A stretch of 64,000 nt of DNA from Kyrpidia tusciae DSM 2912 (GCF_000092905.1 NC_014098.1:2790001-2854000), one strand, 5' to 3'. Positions 129-28,813 are shown, counted from the stretch's first letter. The notes: generated by a model not told the origin, from the letters alone. Program-made: numbers and translations.

Positions 129-181
129 TCGATGCACACCCTCATTTGGCGATCCCTCGGAGTTAATTTGCCAGCGATACC

Positions 182-240
182 TTGACAGCGATGCTTGCGA
201 CGCGTATATTGTTTTTGGGTTTGTTAGTAAGCACTTACAT
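182..240 (+). promoter_or_regulatory. RND operon promoter with a TetR-type operator
   Basis: A consensus -35 (TTGACA, 182-187) and -10 (TATATT, 205-210) are separated by 17 bp. Just after the expected start site lies GTAAG-CA-CTTAC (227-238) inside TAGTAAGCACTTACAT (225-240). The same GCACTTACAT string occurs in a second palindrome in front of the tetR gene at 5388-5403. A shared operator in both promoters is inferred, with TetR binding blocking RND transcription. Confidence 0.7.
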
Positions 241-341
241 ACAATCATGCGGGATTGTGTTCCCAATCCGACAGGGCAGAGATGCGTCGCTCGAAGAAAC
301 GGATGCGATTGACCAGGGCGAAGGGGTGGTGTTGCTCAAGG

Positions 342-1583
342 ATGACGGAGTTAAAACGAAAGAACATCGTACTTTGGATAGCACTCATTGCCTTGTTCGC
401 GTTATCCTTCGTGTTGTCCGGGTGCCAGACGAAGACGGAAACAGTCGATTTTCCTGGCATACCGGTCGAGGTGACGCGTCTAAAACGCGGTGAAATTGTC
501 CACGAAAGCGCGTATTACGGAGAGACGGAGAGCAGAACTCGCGTAACAGTCAGCGCGAAAGTTTCCGGGACTGTCAACCACCTGGCGAAACATAATGGTG
601 ACCGGGTCGATCAGGGCGAACTCATCCTGAGCCTTGACAATACTGACATCGAAGCGACGGTGGCGCAAGCTGCTGCTGCAGTTCAAGTGGCCGAAGCGAA
701 TGTGGAGAAGATCAAAAAAGGGCCTGAACCGGAAGAAATAACCGCCGCAAAAGAGAACGTGCGTCAGGCTGAGATCGCCGTCGAGGCCGCACGTACCAAC
801 CTTGAGCGGACGAAAAAACTTTTTGAAAACGGGGTCGTGAGTTTGAAAGAATCGGAAAACGTGCAACACGAATATGACCTTGCCATGTCGAGACTCGCCG
901 CCGCCGAACAAAATCTTTTGCTTCTCAAGCGCTCACCAACCCCGGAGGCGGTCGCCGTTGCTGAAGCGGAACTCAATAAGGCCAGAACCTCTTATCATAC
1001 GGCTCTCTCGAAGCGCAACGATGCTCGCGTGATAAGTCCTGTATCCGGTTATATCTCGGGACTTGTTATTCAAGAAGGGGAATTTTTGGCTGCCGGGACA
1101 CCGTTTGCCGTGATCGAGAATCCCAACGCCTTCCACATTACGGTGCGGGTTTCAGAAAGCGACATCCATTTCGTTCGTTTGGGTGACAACGTGACCGTGA
1201 AGTTTCCAACTCTTCAGCTTTCGACCACGGGGGTAGTCGATGAAGTCTCGCCATCGGCCGATCCGCGCACAGGTCTGTTCCCAGTGAAACTCACGATTGA
1301 AAACCATGACGGTCAAGTGAAACCCGGCATGGTCGCGAACGTCATCATCCCCCTTGAACGGCATGGATCAGCTCTCGTCGTGCCGACGAACGCAGTCATC
1401 AACGACAAGGGCGATACATACGTGTATGTCGTCGAAAAGGGCGTTGCCAGAAAAAGGAAGGTCAATACGGGCATTCGCAGCGAACAATACGTAGAAATCA
1501 TCGACGGGCTGTCCGTCGATGAAGTGGTTATCACCGCAGGCGTCGACCTCCTCGTCGACGGAGAGAGGGTTGTCGTGAGATGA
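342..1583 (+). CDS. RND efflux adaptor lipoprotein (HlyD/MFP family)
   Basis: This is the membrane-fusion subunit of a tripartite-type efflux pump; in a Gram-positive it would be lipid-anchored on the outer face of the membrane. The start ATG at 342 gives a signal peptide with lipobox LSGC; GTGG-rich sequence at 323-329 is the likely ribosome site, although in-frame starts exist further upstream (303, 255). After the lipobox come a barrel-sandwich half, an alpha-helical hairpin rich in Ala/Glu (about residues 80-200), the returning lipoyl half and a beta-barrel with the PGMVANVIIP segment. The stop overlaps the ATG of the RND permease (ATGA), showing translational coupling. No outer-membrane factor is encoded, as expected for a monoderm. 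Confidence 0.85.
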   Translation: MTELKRKNIVLWIALIALFALSFVLSGCQTKTETVDFPGIPVEVTRLKRGEIVHESAYYGETESRTRVTVSAKVSGTVNHLAKHNGDRVDQGELILSLDNTDIEATVAQAAAAVQVAEANVEKIKKGPEPEEITAAKENVRQAEIAVEAARTNLERTKKLFENGVVSLKESENVQHEYDLAMSRLAAAEQNLLLLKRSPTPEAVAVAEAELNKARTSYHTALSKRNDARVISPVSGYISGLVIQEGEFLAAGTPFAVIENPNAFHITVRVSESDIHFVRLGDNVTVKFPTLQLSTTGVVDEVSPSADPRTGLFPVKLTIENHDGQVKPGMVANVIIPLERHGSALVVPTNAVINDKGDTYVYVVEKGVARKRKVNTGIRSEQYVEIIDGLSVDEVVITAGVDLLVDGERVVVR

Positions 1584-4500
1584 GCTTTTATCATACATCT
1601 GTCAAACGGCCCCTCACGATTTCGATGATTGTCGTCATCGTTATGCTGCTCGGAATGTACGTTTTTTTCCGCATCCCGATTGATCTCTTTCCGGACATTG
1701 AGACGCCGGTCGTTACCGTCACGGTCAAGTACCCCGGTGCCTCACCGGAAGAGGTCGAAAACGGCGTTACCGATGTGCTCGAAAAAGAATTGAATACGCT
1801 GGAAAATTTAAAGCGGATCAGTTCCGTAAGCTCACAAAATGTCGCGCGCATTTTTGTTGAATTTAACTATGGGACGAATATCGATCTGGCCGAGAACAAA
1901 GTAAAATCCAAAATCGATGCGGTGCTGGGTGATCTGCCGTCCACCATCGAGGTCCCTGTCGTTGAGAAAGTGAGTCCCGCCGACCTGCCCGTCGTCGAAG
2001 TGGCCCTTTTCGGTGAACGCGATGACGTCGATCTCAAGATGCTCACGACATTTGCTGAAGACTGGATCAAACCGTCATTTCAGAAGATACCGGGTGTCGC
2101 TTCGGTGACCGTATTCGGAGGACGGACGAATGAAGTATCGGTTGCTTTGGATCCCAATCGCCTACAAGCATTCCACCTCAGCATCAATCAAGTTGAAGAG
2201 GCCATCAAGAAAGACAGCGTCACGCTCGCAGTCGGCAAAGCTCGAGAAGGGCAAAAAGAACTCTCCGTCAAAGTCGATGCCGACCTTCGCGATTTGTACC
2301 AACTCGAAAATATATCCATTCCCACGCCAACGGGGCCGCCGGTGCGCTTAAAAGACCTCGGCACCGTGAAGACCCAAGAAGCGGAAAACAATCAATACGC
2401 GTACTATAACGGCCAAAAGGCGTTGGCCATGTTTGTATATAAACAAAAAGATGCCAACACGCTTGACGTTGCCAGGCGCCTGAAGGCTGAGATCGAACGA
2501 ATACGACCCGAATTGCAAACTGCGGGCGCAAACATCGCGGTGACCAATGATTCCTCCGCGTTTATCGACAAGTCGATTCGCACGCTGGCCGAACATGGGC
2601 TCATCGGAGCGACGCTTGCCGTGGTCATTCTTTATCTATTTTTAGCCGACGTAGCAGCAACGCTCGTCGTTTCAACGGCGATTCCGATCTCCATTGTGAC
2701 GACGTTTTTGTTGATGTATTTCTCTAATTTAAGCATCAACCTGATCACGCTTGGAGCTCTTACGCTCGGAATCGGGCTCATGATCGACGATGCCGTTGTC
2801 GTTCTGGAAAACATTTTCCGGCACTACCGCGAAGAAAGAAAAACGGTTTTTCAAGCCGCTGTGGATGGAGTACGCCAAATTTCGGCGCCGGTCATCGCAA
2901 GCACCATCACGAAAATGATCGTCTTTTTGCCACTGCTCTTTGTCCAAGGCCTGACGGGACAACTCTTCTTGCCGCTTGCCTTGACGGTCATGTATTCACT
3001 TTTGGCTTCGCTCGTCGTTTCACTTACCGTAACACCGACGATCACGGCCATGCTCCTTGGTTTATCGGAGCGGTCAAAGTGGCTGTCTCGCCAGGGGAAA
3101 ATAGCCCGTTTTCTCACCACTTCGCGCCACAAACTCCTGAATGGGTACAGAGGCTTTCTCGAATGGGCTTTGAATCACAAGGCGTTCGTTCTTTTACCTG
3201 CCGTGATCAGTGTGGTCATCGGCGTAGCGCTCGCGCCGCTTATCGGAGGGGAGTTTATGCCGAAGATGGACAGCGGCGAATTTACGATTCACATCGATAT
3301 GCCGCCCGGTGCCAAGACCGCGGAGACAGACCGCGTTGTCAAAAGCATTCTCGATCGGTTACATGCGATTCCAGAAGTTCAGGAGACATTTGTCGGACTG
3401 GGCGCTACGCAATCGAACCCGACCATCGAGCAAACCGATAAAGCGTACATAAACGTCAATCTTCTTGGCAAGCGCGACCGGAAGCGAAGCACCGCAGACG
3501 TCGTTGAAATGGTACGCAGGGAGCTTGCCATGCCGGGCGTTAAACTTAAAGTTCAAGAAAAAGGGTTTGTCGTTTCTTCGCTATTTTCCTCTGATCCTGT
3601 CTACATTACAGTAAAAGGGGAAAATATCGATATGCTCAACCAGATCTCGTCGGACATCACCCGTATGGTGCGCACCATTCCCGGTGTCCGCGATGCGGAT
3701 AATAGCCTCGGATTAAAAAAGGTCGAGTTTGTTCTGAACGTTGATCAAGAAAAAGCGAAATTGCATGGCTTGGATGTGCTAACGATCAGCCGAATGATGA
3801 AAACGATGATCGATGGAGATGTCGTCGCCAGTTTAAAAACGAAGACAGGTGATATCGACATTCGCGTCGGTTACGATCTTACTAGTGGGCAAAAACCAAG
3901 CATCCATGAACTGTTGGCGCTGTCCATTCCGACACAAAATGGGTTTGTACCGCTTTCAGATCTCGTCGTCACCGGACAAAATTCAAGCCCGTCCGACATT
4001 TACCGCGAAAATCAGGTGCGGATGGCTTTTGTGACCGCCGACCTGTACCAGACTGATCTGCAGACGGTCAACGCCGCCATTCACAAACAACTCGAATCGT
4101 ATCCTTTGCCAAAAGGCTATACGATCGAGTTCGGCGGAGAAACAAAAGACATGGCTGAATCGTTTTCTCAACTCGGTATCTCACTCATTTTGGCCATCAT
4201 TTTAATCTATGCCGTCATGGTCGCTGAATTTGAGACGTTTCGGCATCCGTTCATTATCATGTTTTCCATTCCCGCGACGGCGATCGGCATCACAGGAAGT
4301 TTGCTTCTGTTCAATCGGCATTTTAGCATTTCCTCAATCATGGGGATGATCATGCTTGCGGGGATCATCGTAAGCAATGGAATCGTCATGATCGACCTCA
4401 TGAAGCAACTGCGGGAGAAAGGTTTAAGCGCCCGAGAAGCGGTACTTCGGGCCGGGCCGCTGCGCCTTACACCCGTGCTCATCACCGCTGGGGCGGCCGT

Positions 4501-4711
4501 TTTTGCAGTTCTTCCTCTGGCCGTCGCGACCAGTGAAGGGTCGGAAATGAACGCCCCGATGGCGACCGTCGTCATGGGGGGCTTGAGTGTCGGTACCCTC
4601 ATCACGCTCGTCATCATTCCGGTTCTCTACGACGGGATGGAGACGTTACGCGCCCGTCGTAAGCGGTATCCAGACCGAAGTGCCGAAAAGGCTGAGGTGT
4701 TGGACAAATGA
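1580..4711 (+). CDS. RND family efflux transporter permease
   Basis: A proton-driven multidrug/solvent exporter of the HAE1/AcrB type, 1,043 residues as is usual for the family. It shows the typical two-fold repeat: TM1 near residues 12-32, a periplasmic porter region, six helices at about 335-540 with the proton-relay aspartate pair in GIGLMIDDAVVVLEN (about residues 395-410), a second large loop, and helices at about 860-1020 with SIMGMIMLAGIIVSNGIVM. ATGA overlap with the adaptor gene indicates co-translation. The gene and its partner look richer in A+T than the DNA beyond 5.7 kb, which suggests acquisition. The substrate cannot be read from the sequence. Confidence 0.92.
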   Translation: MSFYHTSVKRPLTISMIVVIVMLLGMYVFFRIPIDLFPDIETPVVTVTVKYPGASPEEVENGVTDVLEKELNTLENLKRISSVSSQNVARIFVEFNYGTNIDLAENKVKSKIDAVLGDLPSTIEVPVVEKVSPADLPVVEVALFGERDDVDLKMLTTFAEDWIKPSFQKIPGVASVTVFGGRTNEVSVALDPNRLQAFHLSINQVEEAIKKDSVTLAVGKAREGQKELSVKVDADLRDLYQLENISIPTPTGPPVRLKDLGTVKTQEAENNQYAYYNGQKALAMFVYKQKDANTLDVARRLKAEIERIRPELQTAGANIAVTNDSSAFIDKSIRTLAEHGLIGATLAVVILYLFLADVAATLVVSTAIPISIVTTFLLMYFSNLSINLITLGALTLGIGLMIDDAVVVLENIFRHYREERKTVFQAAVDGVRQISAPVIASTITKMIVFLPLLFVQGLTGQLFLPLALTVMYSLLASLVVSLTVTPTITAMLLGLSERSKWLSRQGKIARFLTTSRHKLLNGYRGFLEWALNHKAFVLLPAVISVVIGVALAPLIGGEFMPKMDSGEFTIHIDMPPGAKTAETDRVVKSILDRLHAIPEVQETFVGLGATQSNPTIEQTDKAYINVNLLGKRDRKRSTADVVEMVRRELAMPGVKLKVQEKGFVVSSLFSSDPVYITVKGENIDMLNQISSDITRMVRTIPGVRDADNSLGLKKVEFVLNVDQEKAKLHGLDVLTISRMMKTMIDGDVVASLKTKTGDIDIRVGYDLTSGQKPSIHELLALSIPTQNGFVPLSDLVVTGQNSSPSDIYRENQVRMAFVTADLYQTDLQTVNAAIHKQLESYPLPKGYTIEFGGETKDMAESFSQLGISLILAIILIYAVMVAEFETFRHPFIIMFSIPATAIGITGSLLLFNRHFSISSIMGMIMLAGIIVSNGIVMIDLMKQLREKGLSAREAVLRAGPLRLTPVLITAGAAVFAVLPLAVATSEGSEMNAPMATVVMGGLSVGTLITLVIIPVLYDGMETLRARRKRYPDRSAEKAEVLDK

Positions 4712-4795
4712 TCACTGTCTAAGACAGGTACGAGTGCCGTGATCAACATATGCGATGCCATTGATTGGGTTGCGCGGCGGCATTCGGTGGATGAG

Positions 4796-5371
4796 CTACG
4801 GTGTTCGCCGGATCAGCGTTAAAATGGCCGCGGTGTACCGCTCAACGAGGGTCTCCTGTTCTTCAGGTGACAGCACGTGAAAGGGAGGGTCGGTCGGCTG
4901 AACGATGTGTCCGAGAAAAATGCCGTATAAAAGTCGCATCGCCGGTTCGGCCGACGTTTTGATTCCACGCGCATTGAAATGCCATTCGACGGCCCGACCG
5001 ACTTCTTTAATGATAAGTTTTGGAAGATCGATTTCCGGCGGCAGGCGGTGGAGGAGACTCTCGGCGATCAACATGCGGAGCACCGGCGTGTGATGGGAGA
5101 TGAACATCAATCGGTTCTGAAGCAAACGCCGAAAAAATATAGGTGATTCGCATTCCTCGGCGGTTTCTAAGATGTCGGGAATGAAACGTCGCTCGATATA
5201 AGGCTTGAATGCCGCTAAAAACAGGTTGCGTTTGCTCCCGAATTTACGAAACAACGTCAACTCGGCCACGCCGGCCGCTTTAGCGATCTCCATTGTGGTG
5301 CCTTTTTCATATCCTTTTTCGATGAATACGTTCCGCGCTGCCTTAAGGATTTGTTCCATTTTATCCGCCAA
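4796..5371 (-). CDS. TetR/AcrR family transcriptional regulator
   Basis: A 191-residue repressor with the N-terminal helix-turn-helix IAKAAGVAELTLFRKFGSK and a divergent ligand-binding C-terminal half. I chose TTG at 5371-5369 because GAGGTG lies 7 nt upstream and translation then begins ADKMEQILKAARNVF, as in family members; a longer frame upstream would read through the operator. It is convergent with the RND pair. Its promoter carries the same half-sites (GTAAG / CTTAC) as the RND promoter, so it most likely represses both the pump and itself until an effector binds. Confidence 0.88.
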   Translation of the reverse strand: MADKMEQILKAARNVFIEKGYEKGTTMEIAKAAGVAELTLFRKFGSKRNLFLAAFKPYIERRFIPDILETAEECESPIFFRRLLQNRLMFISHHTPVLRMLIAESLLHRLPPEIDLPKLIIKEVGRAVEWHFNARGIKTSAEPAMRLLYGIFLGHIVQPTDPPFHVLSPEEQETLVERYTAAILTLIRRTP

Positions 5372-5387
5372 AGGTGAACACCTCACC

Positions 5388-5403
5388 GTAAGTTTGCACT
5401 TAC
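5388..5403 (-). promoter_or_regulatory. TetR operator in the tetR promoter
   Basis: GTAAGT-TTGC-ACTTAC is a perfect 6-bp half-site palindrome, 17 nt before the TTG start. On the minus strand a -10-like TTATACT lies just upstream (about 5410-5417). The right part GCACTTACAT is identical to the operator at 231-240 in the RND promoter; the centre differs (4 bp here against CA there). Autoregulation is inferred. Confidence 0.6.
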
Positions 5404-5419
5404 ATCGGAAGTATAACAC

Positions 5420-5723
5420 ATCGGGCCGCCGGCTTTTCCTCATAACCGTCCTGATAGTCCCAGGAGTCGTGTAAATTGGGACTCCGAAAATGGACAAAAG
5501 AAGCCATCGTTGTGCCTACTCGAACGTGCGAGATCATCCTGGGGGGCCTGTTGGCGGCCACCGCCGCATCCCAGGCATCCACCGGCAGCAACTCTCCGCG
5601 ATTTCTTATTGTGCCATGCGATCCGCGGCTTGCGGGCAAAGACGGCCGATATGGAGCAGCCCCTTGACAACCGAGGCGCGGAAATCAATGTTATGAGTAG
5701 GTCCTCAATCAGGAGGTGCGTCC
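5420..5723. other. Intergenic stretch without a recognisable gene
   Basis: Short frames occur on both strands but none has a convincing start, ribosome site or family motif. Near its right end TTGACA (5664-5669) is followed 18-19 bp later by an ATGTTATG box, a possible promoter for the decayed tetR and the ABC efflux operon. GC content rises sharply across this stretch relative to the RND module. Confidence 0.35.
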
Positions 5724-6048
5724 ATGAAGGAGTCCTCTGAAGGACGCCGGTCCGGAGACGCACGCCCGTCGCCCAGCAGCCGGCCGTTGAAAATCCGGCA
5801 TCCGGATCCGCGCAGGGGTTCTACAACCTCCTCGATCTTTTCTCCAGAGAGGACATCACGGACCGGCATTGGCGCATCCTGGAGCCGGCCAGCCGGGTCT
5901 TTTCCGAAAAAGGACTCAGCGCCGCCTGGACGCTTTCCCCGACTTTTTCCCCTGGAAAGACAAAGAGGTGGAGACCCGGCGGATGCTGGACATCCACCTC
6001 CATGGGATTGTGCGTCGCGACGAGATGGACGCTGCAAAGGAGGAAAAT
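5724..6048 (+). pseudogene. Decayed TetR-type regulator upstream of the ABC efflux genes
   Basis: AGGAGG (about 5710) precedes ATG 5724, but the frame soon becomes non-protein-like. In the frame starting near 5780 one reads HWRILEPASRVFSEKGLSAA (about 5865-5925), very like the first helices of TetR proteins. In a different frame just after it lies ETRRMLDIHLHGIVRRDE (about 5970-6023), resembling a TetR C-terminal helix. The core of about 100 residues is missing. I read this as a tetR gene with an internal deletion and frameshifts, left in the usual position of a local repressor. Confidence 0.45.
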
Positions 6049-7242: not shown

Positions 7243-8036
7243 GCCGCATCGAAGGAAATGCGGCCGGGGGCGCAAGTCAGGACCCGGCCATCACCTGTAC
7301 GGATCTGACGAAACAGTTCGGTTCCCGGACGGCCGTGGATCGGGTTTCTCTCACCATTCCTCGGGGGGCGATTTACGGTTTTCTCGGTCCGAACGGATCG
7401 GGAAAATCCACCACCATCCGGATGCTCTGCGGGGTGCTGACCCCGACCTCAGGAACCGGCCGGGTGCTGGGCTACGATATCGTTCGGGATGCCGAGGAGA
7501 TCAAGGCCCGAATCGGCTACATGTCCCAGCGGTTCAGCCTCTACGAGGAGCTGACGGTGATGGAGAACCTCGATTTTTACGCCCGAATCTACGGGCTCTC
7601 CGGACCCCGGGTCCGAGAGCGCAAGGAGGAACTGATCGCCCTGGCAGGTCTGACCGGCCGGGAGAAACAGCGGGCCGGCTCCCTCTCCGGCGGTTGGAAG
7701 CAGCGGCTGGCCCTCTCCTGTGCCCTCCTTCATGAGCCCGAGTTGCTGATCCTCGATGAACCCACCGCCGGCGTCGATCCCGTATCGAGGAGAGTTTTCT
7801 GGAATTTGATCCACGACCTGGCCAAAACCGGGGTCACCGTCCTGGTGAGTACCCATTACATGGACGAGGCCGAAACCTGCGACCGGATCGGGTTTATTTT
7901 CTTCGGGAAACTGCTGGTGGACGGAACGCCGGAAGAACTCAAGCGGCAATTCGGGACCTCGACCTTAGATGATGTGTTTATCCAACTCGTTTCCTCCCAG
8001 GAACACCCTCTGGGCGATGGAGGGGGCGCTGCATGA
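7239..8036 (+). CDS. ABC-2 exporter ATP-binding protein
   Basis: A 265-residue single-domain ABC ATPase. Walker A is GPNGSGKSTT, the signature is LSGGWKQRLAL (Trp replaces the more usual Met/Gln), Walker B is LLILDEPTAGVDP and the H-loop is VSTHYMDEAE. Sequence similarity is to the CcmA/YbhF class that powers ABC-2 permeases in drug or polysaccharide export. It overlaps by four bases with both the HlyD gene before it and the permease after it, so the three form one operon. YbhF-type ATPases are often double; this one is a half-size unit and would act as a homodimer. Confidence 0.9.
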   Translation: MSRIEGNAAGGASQDPAITCTDLTKQFGSRTAVDRVSLTIPRGAIYGFLGPNGSGKSTTIRMLCGVLTPTSGTGRVLGYDIVRDAEEIKARIGYMSQRFSLYEELTVMENLDFYARIYGLSGPRVRERKEELIALAGLTGREKQRAGSLSGGWKQRLALSCALLHEPELLILDEPTAGVDPVSRRVFWNLIHDLAKTGVTVLVSTHYMDEAETCDRIGFIFFGKLLVDGTPEELKRQFGTSTLDDVFIQLVSSQEHPLGDGGGAA

Positions 8037-9196
8037 GCAACAAAGGGAAACAGGGTCAATCGTCCTTCCAGTGGAATCGCTTTGTGGCCATTGTGCGGAA
8101 AGAATTCTTACAAATCCGGCGGGACCCCGCGAGCCTGGCCATCGCTTTGGCCATGCCGTTGTTGATGCTGCTCCTGTTCGGATACGCCGTGAACACCGAC
8201 GTGGACCACCTGTCGATGGGGGTGTGGGATCAGGCCAAGACCGCGCAAAGTCGGGAGTTGGTGCAAAATCTGACCAACACGGGGTATTTTGACGAGCGAT
8301 ATCAAGTGGAGGGGTATGGGGAGCTCCAGGGGTTGATGGACAGCGGTCAAATCAAAGTGGGACTGGTGATTCCCCGGGACTACAGCAAGGCTTTGGACAC
8401 CTGGCAACCGGTGGACGTGCAGGTCCTGGTGGACGGGACGGACCCGAACGCCGCCCGGACAGCCCTGGCCAATGCCCAATTGATTCTCCAGAATCGGGCG
8501 ATGGAGGAACAACAAGCCCAGTTGTCGGCGGAGGGTCTCGGTAATGTTCAGATTCCCATTCAGGTGCAAGCCCGGGTGCTCTACAATCCGAACATGAAGA
8601 GTCTGCTCTTTAACATCCCGGCACTGATCGGCCTGATCATGCAAAATGTCACGGCGATTCTGACCGCCTTTACGATTGTCCGGGAGCGGGAGCGGGGGAC
8701 CATGGAGCAGCTGATCGTCACTCCGGTGAGGCCGAGCGAGTTGATCGTGGGGAAACTGACGCCTTACGTCCTCATCGGAATGTTTTCCTTTGTCTTGGTG
8801 TTGGCTGCGGGTACCGCCTGGTTTGGCGTGCCGGTCAAAGGAAGTGTGGGGCTGTTGCTGATCCTGAGCCTGCTGTTCTTGGTCACCGCTTTGGCGATCG
8901 GGATCTTGATCTCCACCGTGGCCAAAACCCAGCTCCAGGCGATGCAGATGGCTTTCGCTTTCATCCTGCCGAGCGTGTTGTTGTCCGGGTTTATTTTTCC
9001 CCGGGAGACCATGCCCCTGGTGATCCAGTGGATCGGGGCGGTGATCCCACTGACCTATTTTCTCGAAATCCTGCGGGGGATCTTCTTGAAAGGAATCGGA
9101 ATCGGGCAACTCTGGCAGGATACGGTGAGCCTGGCGATTTTCGCGGTGCTGTTTTGTACGGTCGCCGTTCTGCGTTTCCGCAAGCGGTTGGATTGA
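8033..9196 (+). CDS. ABC-2 type efflux permease
   Basis: 387 residues with TM1 at about 30-50, a large extracytoplasmic domain (about 55-190), and five more helices in the second half, which matches the ABC2_membrane_3 (YhhJ/YbhS) topology. The conserved REFLQIRRDP motif precedes TM1, and the coupling-helix region FTIVRERERGTMEQLIVTP and the GFIFPRETMP loop are typical. It is co-translated with the ATPase (ATGA). E. coli-type systems have two permeases (YbhS and YbhR); only one is present here, so the transporter may be a homodimer. Confidence 0.88.
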   Translation: MSNKGKQGQSSFQWNRFVAIVRKEFLQIRRDPASLAIALAMPLLMLLLFGYAVNTDVDHLSMGVWDQAKTAQSRELVQNLTNTGYFDERYQVEGYGELQGLMDSGQIKVGLVIPRDYSKALDTWQPVDVQVLVDGTDPNAARTALANAQLILQNRAMEEQQAQLSAEGLGNVQIPIQVQARVLYNPNMKSLLFNIPALIGLIMQNVTAILTAFTIVRERERGTMEQLIVTPVRPSELIVGKLTPYVLIGMFSFVLVLAAGTAWFGVPVKGSVGLLLILSLLFLVTALAIGILISTVAKTQLQAMQMAFAFILPSVLLSGFIFPRETMPLVIQWIGAVIPLTYFLEILRGIFLKGIGIGQLWQDTVSLAIFAVLFCTVAVLRFRKRLD

Positions 9197-9356: not shown

Positions 9357-12300
9357 TCAGCGGAACATGTCTCCCTTGTACACAACCCGTTCTCTGTCGG
9401 GCTCCCAGCGGACGAGGCCGCGTTCGATAGCCTCATGCACACCCCGTTCCAGTGCGGTTTCCACCGCAGACCCTAGGCGCTGATACCCGAACAGCCTTGC
9501 GAGTTCCCGAATCAGTTGCTCTTTGGGCAAACTGATCTGGCCTTCGAGAATATATTGGACCGCCGATGCCACTTCTTGAACGGGCAAGTCAGCAGCGTCC
9601 CGGCGTTCGGCATCCCCCTCGCTGATGCGAAACCGCATATAGGTAGCGGGATCGACATCCCTCGGCCAGAAGAACGGCGTTTGGTCTTGGACGGTACACT
9701 TGGGGCGCATATGTTTTACAATCTCGTCCAATCGCATCCGCAATCGGTGGCCAATCCGCTTAATTCCCCAAGCGCCCAGCACCCGGCGATATAGCAGGTC
9801 ACAACTTATCGGACCTTCCCCTTCAATCACCTTCGACAGTTGTTCCTTGATCAGACGAGTATTCGATTCGGCAAAGAAGTCGTCGATGGTAAAGGGCACC
9901 CGTTCCAGGACAACGGGCTGATAGACTGCGAACTTGCCTTTTGTTGTACGCAGTACGGGATCCGCCAGCGCGGACGAGGATTGTTGATTGATCGCCCGCC
10001 CGGGATCGGACTCTTGGCGAGAAATCGGAGCGTCAAAAGTCGCGGGCTGAAGTTGCCCGTTTTTTCCCTTGGCGGGCTCGTCAGTCTGTTGTACCCTCGT
10101 GGCACCAGGTTGCCTTGTCTTAGTTTCTGCCTCCCGAATGGCCTGTTGTATCCCCTGAAGAACCATGTCCAGATTTTCCCACCAGTCCATAGACCAAATG
10201 CGATAAATGTTCCAGCCCAATTGGTTCAGCATTCGTGGGCGCAGGACCTCACGATCTCTCGTCATATCGGCGCGGTGGTAGGTGTGACCGTCTGCGAGAA
10301 TGCCCAGCAAATACCTGCCGGGGTCGCGGGGATCCACGATTGCCAGATCGACCCGAAACCCGGATGTCCCCACGTGTTCGTGAACGGAATATCCCAGACC
10401 TCGGAGCCGTTCTGCAACGTTTCTCTCCAACCCATCGGCAAGGCGCGCTTGGGATGTCACGGGCAGCGCCAAAGCCGTTCTTCCTCTCTCCGCATATTCG
10501 AGGAATGCTTTCAGTCCGGCCACGCCCCGGGAATGAATCCTAGAGCCCTCCATATGCTCGGGTCTCAATGTTGAAAATACGATCATTTCCTCGCGGGCCC
10601 GGGAGACGGCCACATTCAGGCGCCTCCATCCGCCCTCGCGGTTCAGCGGCCCAAAGTTCATGGTGACGTGTCCCGTCTCATCCGGACCATATCCGATCGA
10701 AAAGAGAATGACGTCCCTTTCGTCGCCCTGAACATTTTCCAGGTTTTTAATAAGTAGGGGCTCGTGCATCCCGGCGGCGACAGATTCTAGATCCGGTTCC
10801 CTGGCAAACGCCTCATCCAAAAGATCCTCGATCAGATTCTTCTGCGGAAGGTTAAACGTCACGACGCCAATGCTATGTTTTCGCAGTTCGGGGTCGCGAA
10901 GGCGCCGCAGGATCTCATCCACCACCGCAACGGCTTCCGCCCGGTTCTGCTTCGTCCGCCCGCGATCATAAAACCCGTCCACATGTACGCGTTTCACACT
11001 GGGCACAAGTTCATCGGGGGAGGGAAATGTGAGCAATTTGTTGTCATAATAATGGCGGTTGCTAAATGAAATCAGTCCTTCGCGACGGCTTCGATAATGC
11101 CACAGCAAGAATCCTTGCGGCATTCCGATGGCCAGACAATCGTCCAAAACGCTCTCCAAATCCTCGGAAAGGTCCTTATCCTCGGAATCCCGGTTTGTTG
11201 ACGTGAAGAAACTCGTAGGCGGAAGTTGATTCGGATCCCCTACCACGATAACGTTCCGCCCCCGGGCCATGGCACCCACCGCCTCACAGGTGGGAACTTG
11301 TGAGGCTTCGTCAAAAATGACGAGGTCAAAAGGTGGTGCCGCGGGATCGAGATACTGGGCGACGGATATAGGGGACATTAACATACACGGGCAAACCCGG
11401 TTCAATACGTTGGGAATCTGACCAAATAAGTTACGCAGGGACACACCGCGCCCGTGACCCCGGATTGCCCGCATCAACACCCCAAGTTCAGAGGAGTTGT
11501 GGACCTTCTCTCCGGGATTTGGGATAAGTCTGGCCAGGCGGGCCGCGATTTCCTGCCGTGTCAAGTCCTCGTACTGGTCGACCATGCGGGTAAACCGCCC
11601 AATGCGTTCTTCGAACAGTTGACTGGAAAACTCGGCTAACTCCGGAGTGCGGTGCAACATACTTTCTACACACGCTTTATACAAGGCACGGCGAAAAGAT
11701 GGAACAATTTGGTCATTCTGCAATGTACCATTTTCATATGCCTGCACCAGAGAGGCAAGCCCCATATCGACCAGCTTGTTTCGAACTTTACGAAACGTAC
11801 ACCATTCGCGTAGACCCCCAATGTTTCCCAACCAGGTCCTGGTTTTCTGTTGCAGAGGACGAATCCAGTCCGCCCTCTCCCCTCGCCCCAGGTCCTCGGA
11901 CAAATCGATCTGCAACAATTCGAACACTCGCTGTCGGGACTGCTCCAACTCCTCCTTTACGGCCATGAAGTTTTTCAGGGTGGACCCTTGTTGTTCCAGA
12001 AATGCCTGTGTGCCATCTCGGAATAGCCGTCCCACTCCCTCTTGCAATCCCACACCGCCACTTGGCTGCGCGGCAAAGGCATCGAATATCCGGGCCAGTT
12101 TTTCCCTCCAGCGGGCAACCCCCCGCACCGCCTCCCAGTCCGCCTCACCGTCATTCCAGAGGTTAGCACCGAGGAGCTCGGAATATTTCGCACCCCACTC
12201 GCGCACCGCCCGCTCCTCTTCCTGCAGGTGGACAATCTTCATCAAGTCTCGCTCCAGGCGATTCTTGTCCGGCTTCCCGCCTTTTGCGAGAAATGGCTTA

Positions 12301-15300
12301 ACCCTTTTGGCAATCCGCGCCCGCCGGAGTGTACGTGACATCCAGCCCAGGCGACCGGCCTCTTGCCATTCCCTGAGCACCGACGCCGCGTCGAATTCGA
12401 GAACCTCCGGGAAGTAGTCTTTGTACACATCAGCACGCAATGAATCCCGATTCACGCCGTGCTCTGAAACCCTCCGGAGATTTTCAACCAAATTCTTCCA
12501 ATCCCCCGACGTTATGAACTGGGCCGAGACCTCCGGCGCGTCCAACAGAACCGTGCAGAGCCGATGGAGCAGTTCGGCTTCTTCGAGGGCCAAGGAAGGG
12601 GCACCGTTCCAGTCCAGAGCCCGCACGAGGTCATGGAGGGCGGACTTACAGGCGTCGAGAGTTTGTTCCAGATGACGCAAAGCGTCCTCTGCCTGGGATT
12701 TCAGAACGGCTGAATAATCAGCCCGTTGAATCTCTTTCAGCGGGTGGTCCCACGGGCCCCCGCACACCTCCCCCGCAATCCGCAATTCATTTGCCGCGTC
12801 CAAATATGCCTGCATCTGATCCACAGACATTCGGTCGACGAGACGGCCGTCCACATGAACGACGTCCGGTGCGTTCCGGTCCCGATCGAATAATGTAATA
12901 GCATCGTAAATGGATAAACCGTGACTGTGCTTTCTGTGCAATGCCCGGGCATGACGGCTTAACTCTGCCCTCATTTTGCCCAGTCGTTCCGCTTCCTCTT
13001 GCCATTCGACTTCGGAGCGGACTTTCCCCTGTTCCAACGCCACCCGCAGCTGATCCAACACAGCCCGCTTGTTATTCTTGGTCGAGTGAAGCTCGAGGCA
13101 GAAAGGACCCAGTCCGAGTTCAGAAAGACGTCGCTGAACCACGGTGAGGGCCGCCATTTTCGCAGCGACAAAGAGGACCGTTTTCCCCTGGGCCAAAGCG
13201 TCAGCGATGATGTTGGTGATGGTTTGCGATTTCCCCGTACCCGGTGGTCCGTGCAGAACGAAACTTTCGCCTTCGTGTGCCGCAGCCACCGCCCGGAACT
13301 GGGAGGCGTCCGCGCCAATGGGGACAAACAACTGGTCGGGGGAATATGTGTCCTCAAGACGATCCGGCCGGTCAAAAACCCCTAGAGGTTGCCACTCTAA
13401 CTTTCCGGACATCAGGCTGGCGACGACCGGGTTTTTAACCAGATCGGCCGTTCTGTTCCGTAGATCATTCCACATCACGAACTGACCAAAGGAAAAGAGG
13501 CCGATGCAAGCCCTTTCTTCCACATCCCAACGCCGCTTGTTCATCACCATCTGCCGGACGTGGGTAAAAACTTTGCGCAGATGAATCCCCGACTCGTCTC
13601 GTGGCAGAGGATCGAGACCTTCAATCACTATCCCGTGATCTTGTTTCATCAGCTCCAGGAGCGTGATGTTAAACTGGGTTTCTTCATCCCGGCGGCGAAC
13701 CGTAAACCCGACCCCTCGATGCTTACGAACGATGTCAATGGGAACCATGACCATGGGCGCGTACCGCGGCTTCTCGCTAACATCGGTTTCAAACCATTTT
13801 AAGAATCCGAGAGCCAGGTACAATGTATTGGCACCGTGCTCTTCAAGGGATAATTTCGCGGAGCGATAGATGTGAACACAGCGATCTTTCAGATCCACCT
13901 CCGACAAATCAGCACGAAGCCGCCCGTGCTCCAGCTCCTGTTGAACAATCTGGGCCAGTTGGCTCCCCGGCTGGATCTGACGAAAATGCTGGGGATTCTG
14001 CGGGTTTTCGGTTACAAAGCCAGGAACGGGATGAAGCTCAAACTCCCGGCCCTGGGACAACACATCCTCTAACACGTCAAGTTCTGAGATAAGTAAAGGG
14101 ATCGTCGATTTCTTACCGCGAAAGTTCAGCAGCAAATTGCGTAGCGATAGATCCAGGAGCCGACGTTCCCATTCCCTTTGTTTGGGGTGAACCCCCTGAT
14201 CATTCTCGACGGGCGTTTTAAAGATATCTATCATCCGGGGGACAGCAAACTCTACGTTCTCCTGCACCGTGTCTTCTTCCACAGTCCAACCCGCATCTGT
14301 CTTCACACGAAGGGGAAGGGGGCGGATGCCGTCCGCCCTCGATCGGGCGACGTCCACAAAACAGACGAATTTTTCTTCTTCCATTAAATGTATCTGCGCG
14401 AGCCGCTCGGCTTGTTCAAAAGGTACCGGCGGTTTGGAAGTTAGCGCCGTGGACTCAACAACACAGATTTCACCCACGCCGTCTGCCAGGCGTTTCCGCA
14501 ATAAAGAGATATCATCCTGCACACTTTCTGGGAACGTTTCCTTTACAAGCCACGCACCGACGAACGCATGCCCTTGCACGAACACGATGAGCGGATGTAG
14601 TCCTGCCGCCTCGAGGCAAGCCGCGAAAAGGAGGGTGATATCGAGGCAGTTTCCCATTCGATATGTACTCATGGTATCCGGAAGACGAACGCGCTGTCCG
14701 CTCTCCTGAAAGCTGGGCGGGAGAACAGCGTAGGTGAAGCCCTCTTTTTGTATGGTATGGTAAATAGCCGCCACTTGCATGCGGGCGCGATTCGGATCTT
14801 GAGATTGATACCCATCAAAAGAAGGGCTTGAAATCCATTGACCGAGAATGTCGGCCGGTGTACGTATCAGTCTCCGCACTTCAGGATGATTGGGAGTCAC
14901 GAAAGCCGAAATCATTTCCGGCAATGCCGTCAATCCGCCCCATTCGTCAAAGGCGAGCAGATCAATGGGAAAAGATTCAATATGCAGGACAGTTTCGCCT
15001 TGAAGGACGGAAACTTGCAATTCCTCCGCCAATCGCTCGGTCAATTCGGCAAGCACCCCCGGGGAAACTCGCAAATCCACTGGCCCCAGCACGATGGATT
15101 CACCGGCAGGAATCAGATCAAAGGACGTGCTCCACTCGTCGGCGAATCCCCCGGTGTTCCGGATACAAACCGTGACCCCATGCAAATCTCGAGAGGAGAG
15201 GTTTCTGATATACACTTCGCGAATGACCGGTATTCGGTTTTGTTGTAGGGCATAATTGACTGTCTTGCAATAGACGAGCTTAAATTCAATCAGCGCTTGC

Positions 15301-15308
15301 TCTTCCAA
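9357..15308 (-). CDS. Giant SF1 helicase-nuclease (DUF4011/DUF3320), candidate defence protein
   Basis: About 1,983 residues. Order of parts (numbering from the longest frame, 15317): N-terminal beta-rich region; a transglutaminase-like segment with GNCLDITLLFAACLEAAG (about 221-238) and GHAFVGAWL (about 247); DUF4011-type linker (from about 370); SF1 helicase with Walker A GPPGTGKSQTI (about 690), Walker B LVIFDEASQVP (about 1327), GDPNQLPPTSF (about 1354), QGDERDVILF and AVSRAREEM (about 1530-1575); a Vsr/DUF559-like nuclease (SGFRVDLAIVDP, GILADG, about 1645-1700); and a C-terminal DUF3320 winged segment (about 1800-1870). The start is uncertain: GTG 15317 is too close to AAGGAG, whereas TTG 15308 has good spacing. 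Families of this build occur in defence islands; the function here is inferred. It stands alone, flanked by transport genes. Confidence 0.85.
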   Translation of the reverse strand: MEEQALIEFKLVYCKTVNYALQQNRIPVIREVYIRNLSSRDLHGVTVCIRNTGGFADEWSTSFDLIPAGESIVLGPVDLRVSPGVLAELTERLAEELQVSVLQGETVLHIESFPIDLLAFDEWGGLTALPEMISAFVTPNHPEVRRLIRTPADILGQWISSPSFDGYQSQDPNRARMQVAAIYHTIQKEGFTYAVLPPSFQESGQRVRLPDTMSTYRMGNCLDITLLFAACLEAAGLHPLIVFVQGHAFVGAWLVKETFPESVQDDISLLRKRLADGVGEICVVESTALTSKPPVPFEQAERLAQIHLMEEEKFVCFVDVARSRADGIRPLPLRVKTDAGWTVEEDTVQENVEFAVPRMIDIFKTPVENDQGVHPKQREWERRLLDLSLRNLLLNFRGKKSTIPLLISELDVLEDVLSQGREFELHPVPGFVTENPQNPQHFRQIQPGSQLAQIVQQELEHGRLRADLSEVDLKDRCVHIYRSAKLSLEEHGANTLYLALGFLKWFETDVSEKPRYAPMVMVPIDIVRKHRGVGFTVRRRDEETQFNITLLELMKQDHGIVIEGLDPLPRDESGIHLRKVFTHVRQMVMNKRRWDVEERACIGLFSFGQFVMWNDLRNRTADLVKNPVVASLMSGKLEWQPLGVFDRPDRLEDTYSPDQLFVPIGADASQFRAVAAAHEGESFVLHGPPGTGKSQTITNIIADALAQGKTVLFVAAKMAALTVVQRRLSELGLGPFCLELHSTKNNKRAVLDQLRVALEQGKVRSEVEWQEEAERLGKMRAELSRHARALHRKHSHGLSIYDAITLFDRDRNAPDVVHVDGRLVDRMSVDQMQAYLDAANELRIAGEVCGGPWDHPLKEIQRADYSAVLKSQAEDALRHLEQTLDACKSALHDLVRALDWNGAPSLALEEAELLHRLCTVLLDAPEVSAQFITSGDWKNLVENLRRVSEHGVNRDSLRADVYKDYFPEVLEFDAASVLREWQEAGRLGWMSRTLRRARIAKRVKPFLAKGGKPDKNRLERDLMKIVHLQEEERAVREWGAKYSELLGANLWNDGEADWEAVRGVARWREKLARIFDAFAAQPSGGVGLQEGVGRLFRDGTQAFLEQQGSTLKNFMAVKEELEQSRQRVFELLQIDLSEDLGRGERADWIRPLQQKTRTWLGNIGGLREWCTFRKVRNKLVDMGLASLVQAYENGTLQNDQIVPSFRRALYKACVESMLHRTPELAEFSSQLFEERIGRFTRMVDQYEDLTRQEIAARLARLIPNPGEKVHNSSELGVLMRAIRGHGRGVSLRNLFGQIPNVLNRVCPCMLMSPISVAQYLDPAAPPFDLVIFDEASQVPTCEAVGAMARGRNVIVVGDPNQLPPTSFFTSTNRDSEDKDLSEDLESVLDDCLAIGMPQGFLLWHYRSRREGLISFSNRHYYDNKLLTFPSPDELVPSVKRVHVDGFYDRGRTKQNRAEAVAVVDEILRRLRDPELRKHSIGVVTFNLPQKNLIEDLLDEAFAREPDLESVAAGMHEPLLIKNLENVQGDERDVILFSIGYGPDETGHVTMNFGPLNREGGWRRLNVAVSRAREEMIVFSTLRPEHMEGSRIHSRGVAGLKAFLEYAERGRTALALPVTSQARLADGLERNVAERLRGLGYSVHEHVGTSGFRVDLAIVDPRDPGRYLLGILADGHTYHRADMTRDREVLRPRMLNQLGWNIYRIWSMDWWENLDMVLQGIQQAIREAETKTRQPGATRVQQTDEPAKGKNGQLQPATFDAPISRQESDPGRAINQQSSSALADPVLRTTKGKFAVYQPVVLERVPFTIDDFFAESNTRLIKEQLSKVIEGEGPISCDLLYRRVLGAWGIKRIGHRLRMRLDEIVKHMRPKCTVQDQTPFFWPRDVDPATYMRFRISEGDAERRDAADLPVQEVASAVQYILEGQISLPKEQLIRELARLFGYQRLGSAVETALERGVHEAIERGLVRWEPDRERVVYKGDMFR

Positions 15309-15555
15309 CGGGCACACTTCTCCTTCCCACCGCTGAGTGCGACGATTAGCTTCGTCTCAAAAATATCTGCAATTTTAGCATACCGCACTTCGTATTGCGG
15401 GTAAATCCCTCCGCTGTAGTCCGATGCACAACCACCCAGCCGTGCGAAAAACGGGTGGACAGGCGGAACACTCTCGGCATCCCTTTGGAGGAATTCCAAG
15501 GACTCCTGTGGAATGATTGTATATGTGTATACGCTCAGAAGCAGGAGGATCTTGC

Positions 15556-22325: not shown

Positions 22326-24021
22326 GAGCCTTTTTCGATGCCGAAAAGGCCAGGAGGGATAAGGGGTAAGGAGCAGGGACCAGAAAACTTTCCCCCAAAG
22401 AGGGCCAGGAAAGACAGGGGTTTTGAATGGGGGGAGGGATAGATTCGGACAAATTCACCCCAGTCCAATAAGACAGGTGAGTCCTCTTTTGTTAGAATAG
22501 TGGTTAGACAAATGATCCAACAAGGAGGACTCACCCTATGGCCATTATACCACAACTCGAACTGTTTTCCTGGGAAGAGATTGAGCCGCTTGGAGACTTG
22601 GAACGCCTCCGGCTGGTTCTGGAACATCTGCCGGACGAAGCGCTCATGGCGCATCTGGAGAAATCGAGAGGTCATGGACGAGATGACTACCCGGTACGGG
22701 CGATGTGGAACTCGATGTTGGCAGGAATCGTGTTTCAGCACCCGTCGATCGAGAGCCTGCGCCGGGAACTCTCTCGAAACGGGCAGCTGCGGTCGATCTG
22801 TGGGTTGCGCGCAGTTCCCAGCGCAGCCGCTTACACCCGATTTCTCCGCAGCTTGATGGAGCACGGATCGTGGATCGAATCGATGTTCGACGAGCTGGTG
22901 AAGGCCCTGAGTGAGGAACTTCCGGAGTTCGGGCGTCGTTTGGCGATGGACAGTAAGGCAATCGCCTCGTGGGCGTCCCGTCCCTCGAAAGAAAAGAAGG
23001 AAGACGGACGGCGGGATCTGGATGCAGCATACGGGGTAAAAACCTATCGTGGGACCCGCGAGGACGGGAGTACATGGGAGAAAGTGGTCCGGTGGTTTGG
23101 CTACAAGCTCCACCTGGTGGTGGATGCTCAGCATGAATTGCCGGTGGCGTATACGGTGACCAAGGGGTCGCGCTCGGACGTCAAAGAAGGGCATGTCCTG
23201 CTGGATGAGATGGAGAAACGCCATCCGGAGATGTTGAAAAAGGCCGAGGTCCTGACGGCGGATCGGGGGTACGACGACTCGAAACTCCTGAGTCGCTGCT
23301 GGGATGAATATGGGATCAAGCCCGTGATCGACACGAGGCGGATGTGGAAAGACGGGGAGCAAACGCGGTTATTACCGGGACACACGAACGTGGTGTATGA
23401 CGAGGGGGGAGCGGTGTACTGTTACTGTCCAGAGACAGGGGCCCGGCAACAGATGAGCAATGGTGGGTTCGAGAAAGACCGGGGGACGCTGAAAAAAGTA
23501 TGTCCAGCCAAGGCGTACGGGATCACGTGTCAAGGGCGGGAACAGTGCCCCGTGGCCGGAGGGGTGCGGGTGGCGCTCGCAGTGGACCGGCGGATCTTCA
23601 CGCCGATTGCCCGGGAGAGCTACAAATGGGCGAAGGAATACCGGTACAGGACGGCGGTGGAGAGGGTGAACAGTCGCTTGGACGTCTCGTTTGGGTTTGA
23701 ACGGCATACCATTCGTGGGCTGGCCAAGATGCGGTTGCGCTGCGGCTTGGCTTTGTGCGTGATGCTGGCGATGGCATTGGGGAGGGTGCGGGAGAAGCAG
23801 CAAGAACGCATGAGGAGCTTGGTTCGCAGCGTGTCCTAAACGGAACGCGATCGTAGAAGGTGGAGCTCCTGGGCCAGGTAACCAAGAACCTGACCCCGGT
23901 TTCGCATGGCCTGAACCATCCAACCTGTGGATGATAAACCAGATAATGGACATACCAAACTCGCCACGCCGATGGGATTCGTGCTGAAGGTTCGGGGAAA
24001 AAGGGACATCGAAAAAGGCTC
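22326..24021 (+). mobile_element. IS1182-family insertion sequence, copy 1 (1,696 bp)
   Basis: Ends are GAGCCTTTTTCGATG at 22326 and its reverse complement ending at 24021, a 15-bp inverted repeat. One transposase gene fills the element. The sequence is almost identical to copy 2, differing by a 9-bp insertion in the transposase and scattered substitutions. Left flank TTGGG, right flank GCCGGA; the two differ, so this copy no longer has its own target duplication. Confidence 0.85.
22538..23839 (+). CDS. IS1182-family transposase
   Basis: 433 residues; AAGGAGG lies 10 nt before ATG. An N-terminal DUF772-like dimerisation region (about 15-110) is followed by an RNase-H-type DDE core: first Asp in RLAMDSKAIASW, second in VLTADRGYDDSKL, and Glu in YRTAVERVNSRLD. 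A Cys cluster (CPAKAYGITCQGREQC) lies before the Glu. Relative to copy 2 it has an extra LKK after DRGT. It appears intact and probably functional. Confidence 0.9.
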   Translation: MAIIPQLELFSWEEIEPLGDLERLRLVLEHLPDEALMAHLEKSRGHGRDDYPVRAMWNSMLAGIVFQHPSIESLRRELSRNGQLRSICGLRAVPSAAAYTRFLRSLMEHGSWIESMFDELVKALSEELPEFGRRLAMDSKAIASWASRPSKEKKEDGRRDLDAAYGVKTYRGTREDGSTWEKVVRWFGYKLHLVVDAQHELPVAYTVTKGSRSDVKEGHVLLDEMEKRHPEMLKKAEVLTADRGYDDSKLLSRCWDEYGIKPVIDTRRMWKDGEQTRLLPGHTNVVYDEGGAVYCYCPETGARQQMSNGGFEKDRGTLKKVCPAKAYGITCQGREQCPVAGGVRVALAVDRRIFTPIARESYKWAKEYRYRTAVERVNSRLDVSFGFERHTIRGLAKMRLRCGLALCVMLAMALGRVREKQQERMRSLVRSVS

Positions 24022-24059
24022 GCCGGAAATTTTGTCTTGACAACTGGGACTACCGTAGT

Positions 24060-24358
24060 TCCTGGGCACGTATTCGCTGGCTCACATCACCTCAGCGGCC
24101 ATATCCCGTGCCTTTGGCGATGCGCTGAAGCGAGCGCAAATCTCCAAAGAGGTCTCGATCCACTCCTTGCGCCATTCGTTTGCGACCCATTTGTTGGAGG
24201 ATGGAGTTTCCCTGCTGCAAATCAAAGAATTGCTCGGACATGCCAGCATCCGTTCCACGACGGTGTATTTGCACTTGGCAAATGTCACCTCTGGGATGCT
24301 TAGTCCACTTGATCGCCCGCCATCCACGGATAAAGGGAACATCAGTGCCCATGCCTGA
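24060..24358 (+). pseudogene. C-terminal piece of the tyrosine recombinase that accompanies IS91
   Basis: Reading from about 24060 gives HITSAAISRAFGDALKRAQ, then HSLRHSFATHLLEDG with the catalytic His-x-x-Arg, LLGHASIRSTTVYLH with the nucleophilic Tyr, and a stop at 24358. The N-terminal two thirds is gone: the sequence breaks off at the end of IS1182 copy 1 (24021) with a stop at about 24054. IS91-like elements in Bacillota commonly carry such a recombinase upstream of the Y-transposase, and it overlaps the next gene by 8 nt here. Confidence 0.75.
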
Positions 24359-25478
24359 ACTCCAAGACATCTTCGCCCAGTATGCTGACTCCTACGCAAA
24401 GAGGCACCCGCTCTCCCTCGAACAGGGGAAAGTGGTCCGGGCCATCCAGAACTGCCGCACCGCCGCCTTGGGAGGACATGTGGATGAGTGTGACCATTGC
24501 GGATACACGCATATCTCCTACAATTCCTGCCGCAACCGTCACTGTCCCAAATGTCAAACCCTGACCAAGGAACGCTGGATCCAAGCCCAGAAGGCGAACT
24601 TGCTGCAGGTCGGGTACTTTCATGTTGTGTTCACCCTTCCGGAGGAGCTGAATCCCGTTGCCTACCAGAACCCCGAGGTGGTGTACAACCTCTTGTTCAA
24701 GGCCGCTTCGGAAACCCTAACGGAGTTAGCGGCGGACCGCACCTATTTAGGGGCGCAGATCGGTTTTACGGCCGTCCTGCATACCTGGGGGCAGAACCTC
24801 ATGCTCCACCCGCACCTGCATTGTATTGTTCCGGGAGGCGGGCTGACGACAGACGGACGCTGGGTGAACTCCCGCAAGAAGTTCTTCCTCCCCATCAAGG
24901 TGCTCTCGCGTAAATTTCGGGGCAAGTTTCTGTTCCATCTCAAGCGTGCAACGCTTGCACTCCATGGTTCCTTGGAGCCCCTGCGGGACGGGGACCGCTT
25001 TCGGGAATGGATGTCCTCCCTCTACCAGAAGGAATGGGTGGTCTATTGCAAGCCGCCGTTTAAGACGCCGGCTCATGTGGTGGAGTATCTCGGACGCTAC
25101 ACGCATCGGGTGGCGATTTCCAATCAGCGGATTCTTCGCGCGGAAGACGGGAAAGTCACCTTCCGGTGGCGGGACTACCGGGATGGAAATCGGCAAAAAG
25201 AGATGACATTGACGGCTGAAGAGTTCATCCGCAGGTTCTTGATGCATGTCTTACCCAAGGGGTTTACGAGAATTCGGCACTACGGATTGCTCAGTCCCAG
25301 AAACCGAAAGACGAAGCTGAGCCTTTGCCGCAGGTTAACGAAGAGCAACTGCATGCCGGTTCCCAAACTGTCTGCGGTTGAACTGTTTATCCAGTTGACG
25401 GGCAAGGATTTCACAGTGTGTCCCCGTTGCGGGGTGGGTCATCTGACGCGGGCGGCTCCCATCCTCAAAACTGCATAG
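24351..25478 (+). CDS. IS91-family rolling-circle transposase
   Basis: 375 residues from ATG 24351, overlapping the recombinase remnant. N-terminal zinc finger CDHCGYTH...CRNRHCPKC (about 43-72), the metal-binding HLHCIVPGGG motif (about 155), and the YLGRYTHRVAISN segment with paired tyrosines (about 237-249) identify the Y2_Tnp/HUH class. It appears complete. A GTTC tetranucleotide (25648-25651), the family's usual flank at the oriIS end, occurs 170 bp downstream and may mark the element's end. Confidence 0.88.
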   Translation: MPELQDIFAQYADSYAKRHPLSLEQGKVVRAIQNCRTAALGGHVDECDHCGYTHISYNSCRNRHCPKCQTLTKERWIQAQKANLLQVGYFHVVFTLPEELNPVAYQNPEVVYNLLFKAASETLTELAADRTYLGAQIGFTAVLHTWGQNLMLHPHLHCIVPGGGLTTDGRWVNSRKKFFLPIKVLSRKFRGKFLFHLKRATLALHGSLEPLRDGDRFREWMSSLYQKEWVVYCKPPFKTPAHVVEYLGRYTHRVAISNQRILRAEDGKVTFRWRDYRDGNRQKEMTLTAEEFIRRFLMHVLPKGFTRIRHYGLLSPRNRKTKLSLCRRLTKSNCMPVPKLSAVELFIQLTGKDFTVCPRCGVGHLTRAAPILKTA

Positions 25479-25670
25479 CGGTGGATGATCAGCCCGTGGA
25501 ATGGGGAGGGGGAAAGTATGCGCACAGACGGAACAACAACGGTATCTGCGCCCATGCAATTCCAGGGTTTTGCCATGAAACCACTTGCAGGACATACTTT
25601 CGCGAGGAATGGCGAAGATTGATTCCCCATAGCAGCTAACGACCGCGGTTCAGTCCAAGCAAAATATGCG

Positions 25671-25706
25671 AAGTGGCGCTCAGTCTACAGACGAGCGCCA
25701 CTTTTT
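25671..25706 (+). terminator. Intrinsic terminator between IS91 and the RIT element
   Basis: An 11-bp perfect stem, AAGTGGCGCTC with GAGCGCCACTT, and a short loop are followed by TTTA. It is itself nested in a wider inverted repeat (AATATGCGAAG at 25662 and CTTCGCATATT at about 25713-25724). It would stop transcription from IS91 before the RIT element's left end at 25734. Confidence 0.6.
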
Positions 25707-25876
25707 ACACCGACTTCGCATATTTCACTATTCATTATGGGGAGCTGCAGGTTATGTGAAGTACCGGGAGGTTTGTGGCGTTAAATCGTATCCTTGTGAT
25801 GAAATGACTCTACATAACGCCTCACAATGGGGGATGGAGCTGTGGCTCTTAAACCCTCATGAAGGAGGCCATTTTC

Positions 25877-28085: not shown

Positions 28086-28639
28086 GGCCAACTGATTTTG
28101 CGCTTTTATTAACCCGCTACTTGAGTCAGCATTTGCCAGCCCAACGTAACTTGAGTCGACAAACCATTCAGTCTTACCGAGACACATTCAAGCTCTTGCT
28201 GCGATTTTGCCAGGCGGAACGTGGGTGGGTGCCGGAGAACATTACACTTGCCCAGATTGATCGGGCATGTATTGAAGCGTTTCTCGACTGGATTGAAACG
28301 GTTCGCCACTGCACCGTCGCTACGAGGAACCAACGACTTGCTGCATTGAAGTCCTTTTTTCGTTGGGTTTCATATGAGGCGCCGGAACATCTTGAGTCCA
28401 CGCAGCGCGTACTGGGAATTCCGTGGAAAAAGACGGGGCAACCAAAGATGATGTATTTGACAGCGAATGCAGTACAGGCATTATTAGCACAACCGGATCG
28501 TACTACCCCTGCAGGACGGCGAGACGCAACATTGCTTGCCTTGCTCTATGACACCGGTGCGCGAGTACAGGAGCTGGTTGATCTGAGGGTTCGGGATGTA
28601 CGGATCGAATCCCCTGCAGTTGTCACTCTAACCGGGAAA
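28082..28639 (+). pseudogene. RIT tyrosine recombinase C, fragment 1 of 3 (N-terminal)
   Basis: Codons 1-186 of the third recombinase, ending in VVTLTGK where the IS110 element enters. The first catalytic Arg is in YDTGARVQELVDLRV. Beyond 28639 the frame reads three IS-derived codons and stops at 28651. Joined to 30711-31093 and 33769-33856 it makes an unbroken 342-residue protein, so the gene was inactivated only by the two insertions. Confidence 0.85.
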
Positions 28640-28813
28640 GCCCAGTGGTGAAATGTCAAGGGGGTGGTCGAAGAAAATTGGGAATGGATATGGGAAATAG
28701 TTACAAATGCGAAGGTTAAAGGGCGACCTTAACCAAACCCATGATGTTCGCCGAATTTTCGAGCGATGTTCATGGGTGCAAAACTGGAAAATCCGTCCGT
28801 CTGGAGGTAGTGG

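Follow-up and report, generated by a model that had tools for sequence, protein, structure and literature searches.

The described systems closest to the locus analysed here are the NCBIfam family NF058533, an equivalog named 'anti-phage protein ProA', the PADLOC phage-defence candidate PDC-S37 and, at greater distance, Hhe (NF042953) and Mokosh. A literature search did not find a paper defining ProA; the 'Prometheus' of DefenseFinder-based papers may be the same system. In genomic terms, a DUF4011 gene is reported to form one of the core flanks of a defence hotspot that all P. aeruginosa isolates in the study possess (PMC10250203).

The present analysis places a giant architecture that had looked undescribed in the named anti-phage family ProA. 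Judged by its aligned residues, this family splits by the state of two candidate active sites. Both sites are intact in the Pseudomonadota members read, whereas the mostly Bacillota and Bacteroidota branch of the window protein combines an altered nuclease motif with a retained cysteine site, a division that bears on which end of the protein works.

Identification of the gene and its family

The window, that is the whole stretch of 64,000 nucleotides analysed from Kyrpidia tusciae DSM 2912, carries at 9357..15317 on the minus strand an intact open reading frame with a GTG start and 1986 codons for amino acids, uninterrupted by internal stops. It is the single copy of a proA-family gene in the complete 3,384,766-base (3.38-Mb) genome, and its length bears out the single protein of about 1,980 residues read earlier from the DNA alone. 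All features below lie on the same strand.

Residues 21-1947 match positions 1-1903 of NF058533 with 2182 bits (cut-off 1500), and the N-terminal 366 residues searched alone still match model positions 1-334 (E 9.5e-115). PDC-S37 is matched with 1258.7 bits over residues 376-1969, whereas Hhe reaches 806.4 bits in three partial stretches, far under its cut-off of 2000. Membership of the ProA family (PDC-S37-like) is, on these profile matches, near certain. Because NF058533 matches end to end, N-terminal segment included, the arrangement is normal for a named family, and the novelty of the architecture does not hold, the transglutaminase-like segment being already part of the model. The sequence-only reading had proposed a candidate phage-defence system; its single-protein anti-phage interpretation is supported by the family, which is already named, so that the candidate is not a new one. 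A defence function of the window protein is likely, the basis being the family name.

The same reading had likened the protein to Mokosh type II with a Vsr-like nuclease in place of phospholipase D. The SF1 helicase core is indeed common to both and gives 103.5 bits with MkoC and 98.9 bits with MkoA, scores more than tenfold below those of PDC-S37 and ProA; a Pfam scan of the window protein found no phospholipase D family, and MTES_1575 occupies its position. Placement in Mokosh type II was rejected, and a Mokosh type II-like system is a highly improbable description of this locus.

From the N- to the C-terminus, the protein comprises an Ig-like sandwich, a transglutaminase-fold domain, DUF4011, an SF1 helicase, a Vsr-like REase_MTES_1575 nuclease and two winged helices (DUF3320). 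Pfam detects DUF4011 at residues 386-556 (13650..14162; PF13195, E 2.2e-45), AAA_11 and AAA_12 (PF13086, PF13087) within residues 670-1582, the nuclease at 1631-1727 and DUF3320 (PF11784) at 1812-1860. The helicase core (10572..13310) has a long insert between Walker A, GPPGTGKS at residues 690-697 (13227..13250), and Walker B, FDEASQ at residues 1335-1340 (11298..11315). Its motifs are conserved in 62-64 of 64 aligned proteins and all are intact in the window protein; Walker A is identical in 62 of the 64, the other two having GAPGTGKS, and Walker B is kept in every one. The winged helices span residues ~1811-1980 (9378..9887) according to the AF2 model and to structural matches with winged-helix domains. 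The complete SF1 helicase and the DUF3320 module claimed earlier are thus both present.

The N-terminal module

A Pfam scan of the window protein's N-terminal ~370 residues alone gave no match, and searches by sequence for a solved structure resembling either end of the protein returned none that was convincing. Among relatives, Transglut_core (PF01841) is matched by 39 of 52 (best E 8.9e-5). An AF2 model of residues 1-372, built on 52 sequences with a mean pLDDT of 87.9, predicts two domains. The first, at residues ~6-123 (14949..15302), is an Ig-like beta-sandwich with Z scores of ~9-10 to Ig-like domains, those of transglutaminases included. The second, at residues ~127-332 (14322..14939), has the predicted fold of transglutaminases and of yeast PNGase, itself a transglutaminase-superfamily enzyme; residues 127-332 of the model superpose on the yeast protein (3esw) with Z 9.7 over 156 residues (rmsd 3.7). 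The transglutaminase core that had been suspected at residues 150-320 is therefore present in the predicted structure.

The candidate catalytic residues are almost universally conserved in the 59 relatives with the N-terminal domain, a count that includes the window protein. Cys224 (GNCLD; 14646..14648), the predicted nucleophile, lies at the N-terminus of helix 224-237 and is found in 59 of 59, as is His250 (GHAFVGAW; 14568..14570), which starts strand 250-256. The third triad position, Glu288 (VVEST; 14454..14456) at the end of strand 284-287, is occupied by Glu in 58 and by Asn in one. This comparison with a Cys-His-Asp triad is made at the level of the alignment. The earlier numbering is corrected, the GNCLD cysteine being Cys224 and not Cys222; the Cys, His and Glu noted from the DNA are indeed there, but the Glu is no local oddity, being the rule of the family.

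Relatives and the loss of the N-terminal domain

A scan of a genome collection yielded 76 relatives, many from Paenibacillus and Lachnospiraceae, the closest full-length ones at ~50% identity. A quick tree with some long branches was built from the DUF4011-helicase part only, so both active-site regions are excluded from it. It contains a supported group of 40, made up of proteins with the N-terminal domain and a few nested kin that do not have it. Within this group, the proteins without the Glu of the IECDG nuclease motif form one supported branch of 34, which holds the window protein and is mostly composed of Bacillota and Bacteroidota. The other branch, in which every protein has the Glu, is made up of the five from Pseudomonadota and a single member of the window's own phylum (L114).

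The N-terminal domain is absent at three places on the tree, all within the Glu-less branch (L041/L064, L070 and L038/L071). A detached transglutaminase gene was sought beside the domain-less copies, positive controls included, and not found. With three losses and no separate gene nearby, the transglutaminase-like domain is not indispensable to the protein.

The Vsr-like nuclease domain

The nuclease at residues 1631-1727 (10137..10427) matches the REase_MTES_1575/DUF559 profile (PF18741, E 3.1e-28) with 98.1 bits against a cut-off of 38.2. The C-terminal AF2 model (mean pLDDT 82.9) shows a Vsr-like nuclease fold followed by the winged helices, and its nuclease part matches I-Bth0305I (Z 11.1) and Vsr (Z 8.9). 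The Vsr/DUF559-like assignment of the sequence-only reading is upheld as regards the fold and the Pfam family; the intactness of the domain is less certain, since the IECDG Glu is replaced by Leu1674 (LGILADG), E1631, D1657, D1676, H1681 and D1688 being kept.

This replacement is a property of the branch. The Glu column contains L, M, I or V throughout it, and the Glu is retained in all five Pseudomonadota ProA proteins read, which come from plasmids (L105, L106, L107, L109 and L110), and in Hhe-like and more distant DUF4011 helicase-nucleases. D1657, D1676, D1688 and R1689 are kept in every relative in which the columns are present. The position of H1681 is covered in 68 ProA proteins and is occupied by His in only 6, namely the five from Pseudomonadota and the window's, and the helix-1 Glu (position of E1631) is retained in only 10.

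A verdict of a dead nuclease, drawn from the loss of the IECDG Glu, had to be softened. Two real Vsr proteins from other genomes also have no Glu at this position, and E1631, D1657, H1681 and D1688 align with the conserved Vsr E, D, H and D, in an alignment that draws on two Vsr sequences and has a weak score in hhalign (17.7% probability). Because Vsr does without this Glu and the window protein keeps the four other residues, its nuclease may be active in the manner of Vsr.

These residues, together with the Vsr-like fold and the full IECDG nuclease still carried by DUF4011 relatives that have no N-terminal domain, favour a nuclease effector: the helicase would load the Vsr-like domain on phage DNA, which would be nicked or shredded, and the transglutaminase-like domain would be a sensor, a clamp or a self-regulator. 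The scarcity of the His and of the helix-1 Glu makes a family-wide nuclease role hard to sustain in this branch, however, and an explanation of this type is possible but doubtful.

Genomic setting, distribution and mobility

The gene is flanked by efflux operons on one side and by a pair of ABC-transporter genes on the other, with no recognisable defence island around it. PADLOC found no match among ten downstream window proteins (25.8-49 kb), and clustering of neighbours across relatives gave no partner gene common to different lineages. In six Paenibacillus genomes the ProA locus has one chromosomal neighbourhood in common, as would a resident gene.

The distribution of the family is patchy: scores above the NF058533 cut-off come from 6 genomes among 299 in the phylum and from 2 among 200 in the class. 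Full-length copies occur on plasmids, several of them conjugative, in Klebsiella, Rhizobium and P. aeruginosa. In a sister species (G003, L104, about 7805-8738), three proA fragments, 93-99% identical, are found at the same site; internal deletions have left a remnant of ~0.9 kb in place of ~6 kb (window 9357-15479), and the flanking operons are intact at 95-97% identity. Such a pattern points to a dispensable gene that is gained and lost, as expected of defence.

The Paenibacillus neighbourhood, together with the DUF4011 gene flanking the P. aeruginosa hotspot (PMC10250203), could also be read as the mark of a resident genome-maintenance helicase whose substrates would be R-loops, stalled forks or foreign DNA generally, with phage defence as a side effect. 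Patchy presence and carriage on plasmids and ICE-like elements are unlike a housekeeping gene, as is a near-complete deletion between intact flanks in the sister species, and the curated family name is that of an anti-phage protein; a maintenance role is accordingly improbable.

Some ProA copies are themselves altered. A 2221-residue ProA protein of P. aeruginosa (L106, 9548-16213) exceeds the usual length by more than 200 residues, and its record, typed as plasmid, bears genes of an integrating conjugative element. Several plasmid copies (hits H13, H20 and H21) are split in two, with IS21-family genes (istA, istB) between the pieces.

Elsewhere in the window, a block of ~15.6 kb (22327-37968) is missing from the sister genome, where the flanks abut and overlap by 6 bases, the result expected of a target-site duplication. 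The block contains several transposases (DDE_Tnp_1, IS91-like, IS110 and rve types) as well as a run of three tyrosine recombinases; the overlapping recombinase genes at 25859-28651 (419, 326 and 189 residues) resemble a recombinase-in-trio, the third looking short. At 168-5848, an RND-type efflux operon and a TetR-like gene are without counterpart in the sister's stretch, in which the matches at 3649 and 3765 lie almost end to end.

Proposed mechanism

In the proposed mechanism, the winged helices and the nuclease domain would attach the protein to phage (or replicating) DNA, ATP would drive translocation by the helicase, and engagement of DNA would switch on the effector. In the window's branch this effector is guessed to be the N-terminal Cys-His-Glu domain, because it is the best-preserved second active site there; it would cut, deamidate or cross-link a protein during infection, and the Vsr-like domain would either nick DNA weakly or serve mainly to grip it. 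A defence triggered by a helicase and driven by a protease or amidase would be unusual.

A ProA-family single-protein anti-phage system, with this order of effectors included, is the best explanation of the whole and a reasonably probable one. Counted in its favour are the matches to NF058533 (2182) and PDC-S37 (1258.7), the single-gene layout, the patchy spread, the plasmids, the sister-species deletion, the invariant C224 and H250, E288 in 58 of 59, the PNGase and Vsr folds and the branch-wide absence of the IECDG Glu. Against these stand the lack of a recognisable defence island, the shared Paenibacillus neighbourhood, the three domain losses and the Vsr proteins that also do without the IECDG Glu. 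As to which end is the effector, conservation in the branch leans towards the cysteine site, and the triple domain loss and the Vsr-type residues of the window protein lean the opposite way. An effector switch in this branch, in which the decayed nuclease would now only bind DNA and a toxic or protein-modifying output would come from the transglutaminase-fold domain coupled to the helicase, is rather unlikely.

Taken as a whole, the sequence-only reading is supported in the domain order, in both folds and in the single-protein anti-phage interpretation; the Mokosh placement and the novelty fell, and an intact nuclease is uncertain.

Comparison with known systems

The locus is an ordinary member of ProA with a modest twist, the altered nuclease motif beside a conserved cysteine site. 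What is new here is the near-universal Cys-His-Glu set, the branch-wide replacement of the IECDG Glu, the triple loss of the N-terminal domain and the deletion remnants in the sister species.

With ProA (NF058533), the window protein has in common its whole length and domain order, the N-terminal transglutaminase-like segment included; it differs from the Pseudomonadota members, which have IECDG where it has LGILADG. PDC-S37 corresponds to the part from DUF4011 to DUF3320, the PADLOC model leaving out the N-terminal ~375 residues. Hhe has the same order of DUF4011, helicase and MTES_1575 nuclease, but its match is partial and, in this genome, the N-terminal match of the model begins at DUF4011; an Hhe-like protein (L084) has no transglutaminase domain, and Hhe-like proteins retain the IECDG Glu that the window protein has lost. 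Mokosh MkoA and MkoC share a distant SF1 helicase homology with the window protein, which has no phospholipase D.

At the two ends of the protein, the comparison extends to individual enzymes. Yeast PNGase (Png1) and the transglutaminase superfamily have a similar fold and the same order of Cys on a helix, His on a strand and an acid on the next strand; the third residue is usually Asp in these enzymes and Glu in ProA, which also has a longer His-Glu stretch with conserved residues of its own. Vsr and I-Bth0305I, endonucleases of the EDxHD type, resemble the nuclease of the window protein in fold and in the E, D, H and D positions, but the ProA domain is embedded in a helicase, and its E and H are no longer present in most relatives of the branch.
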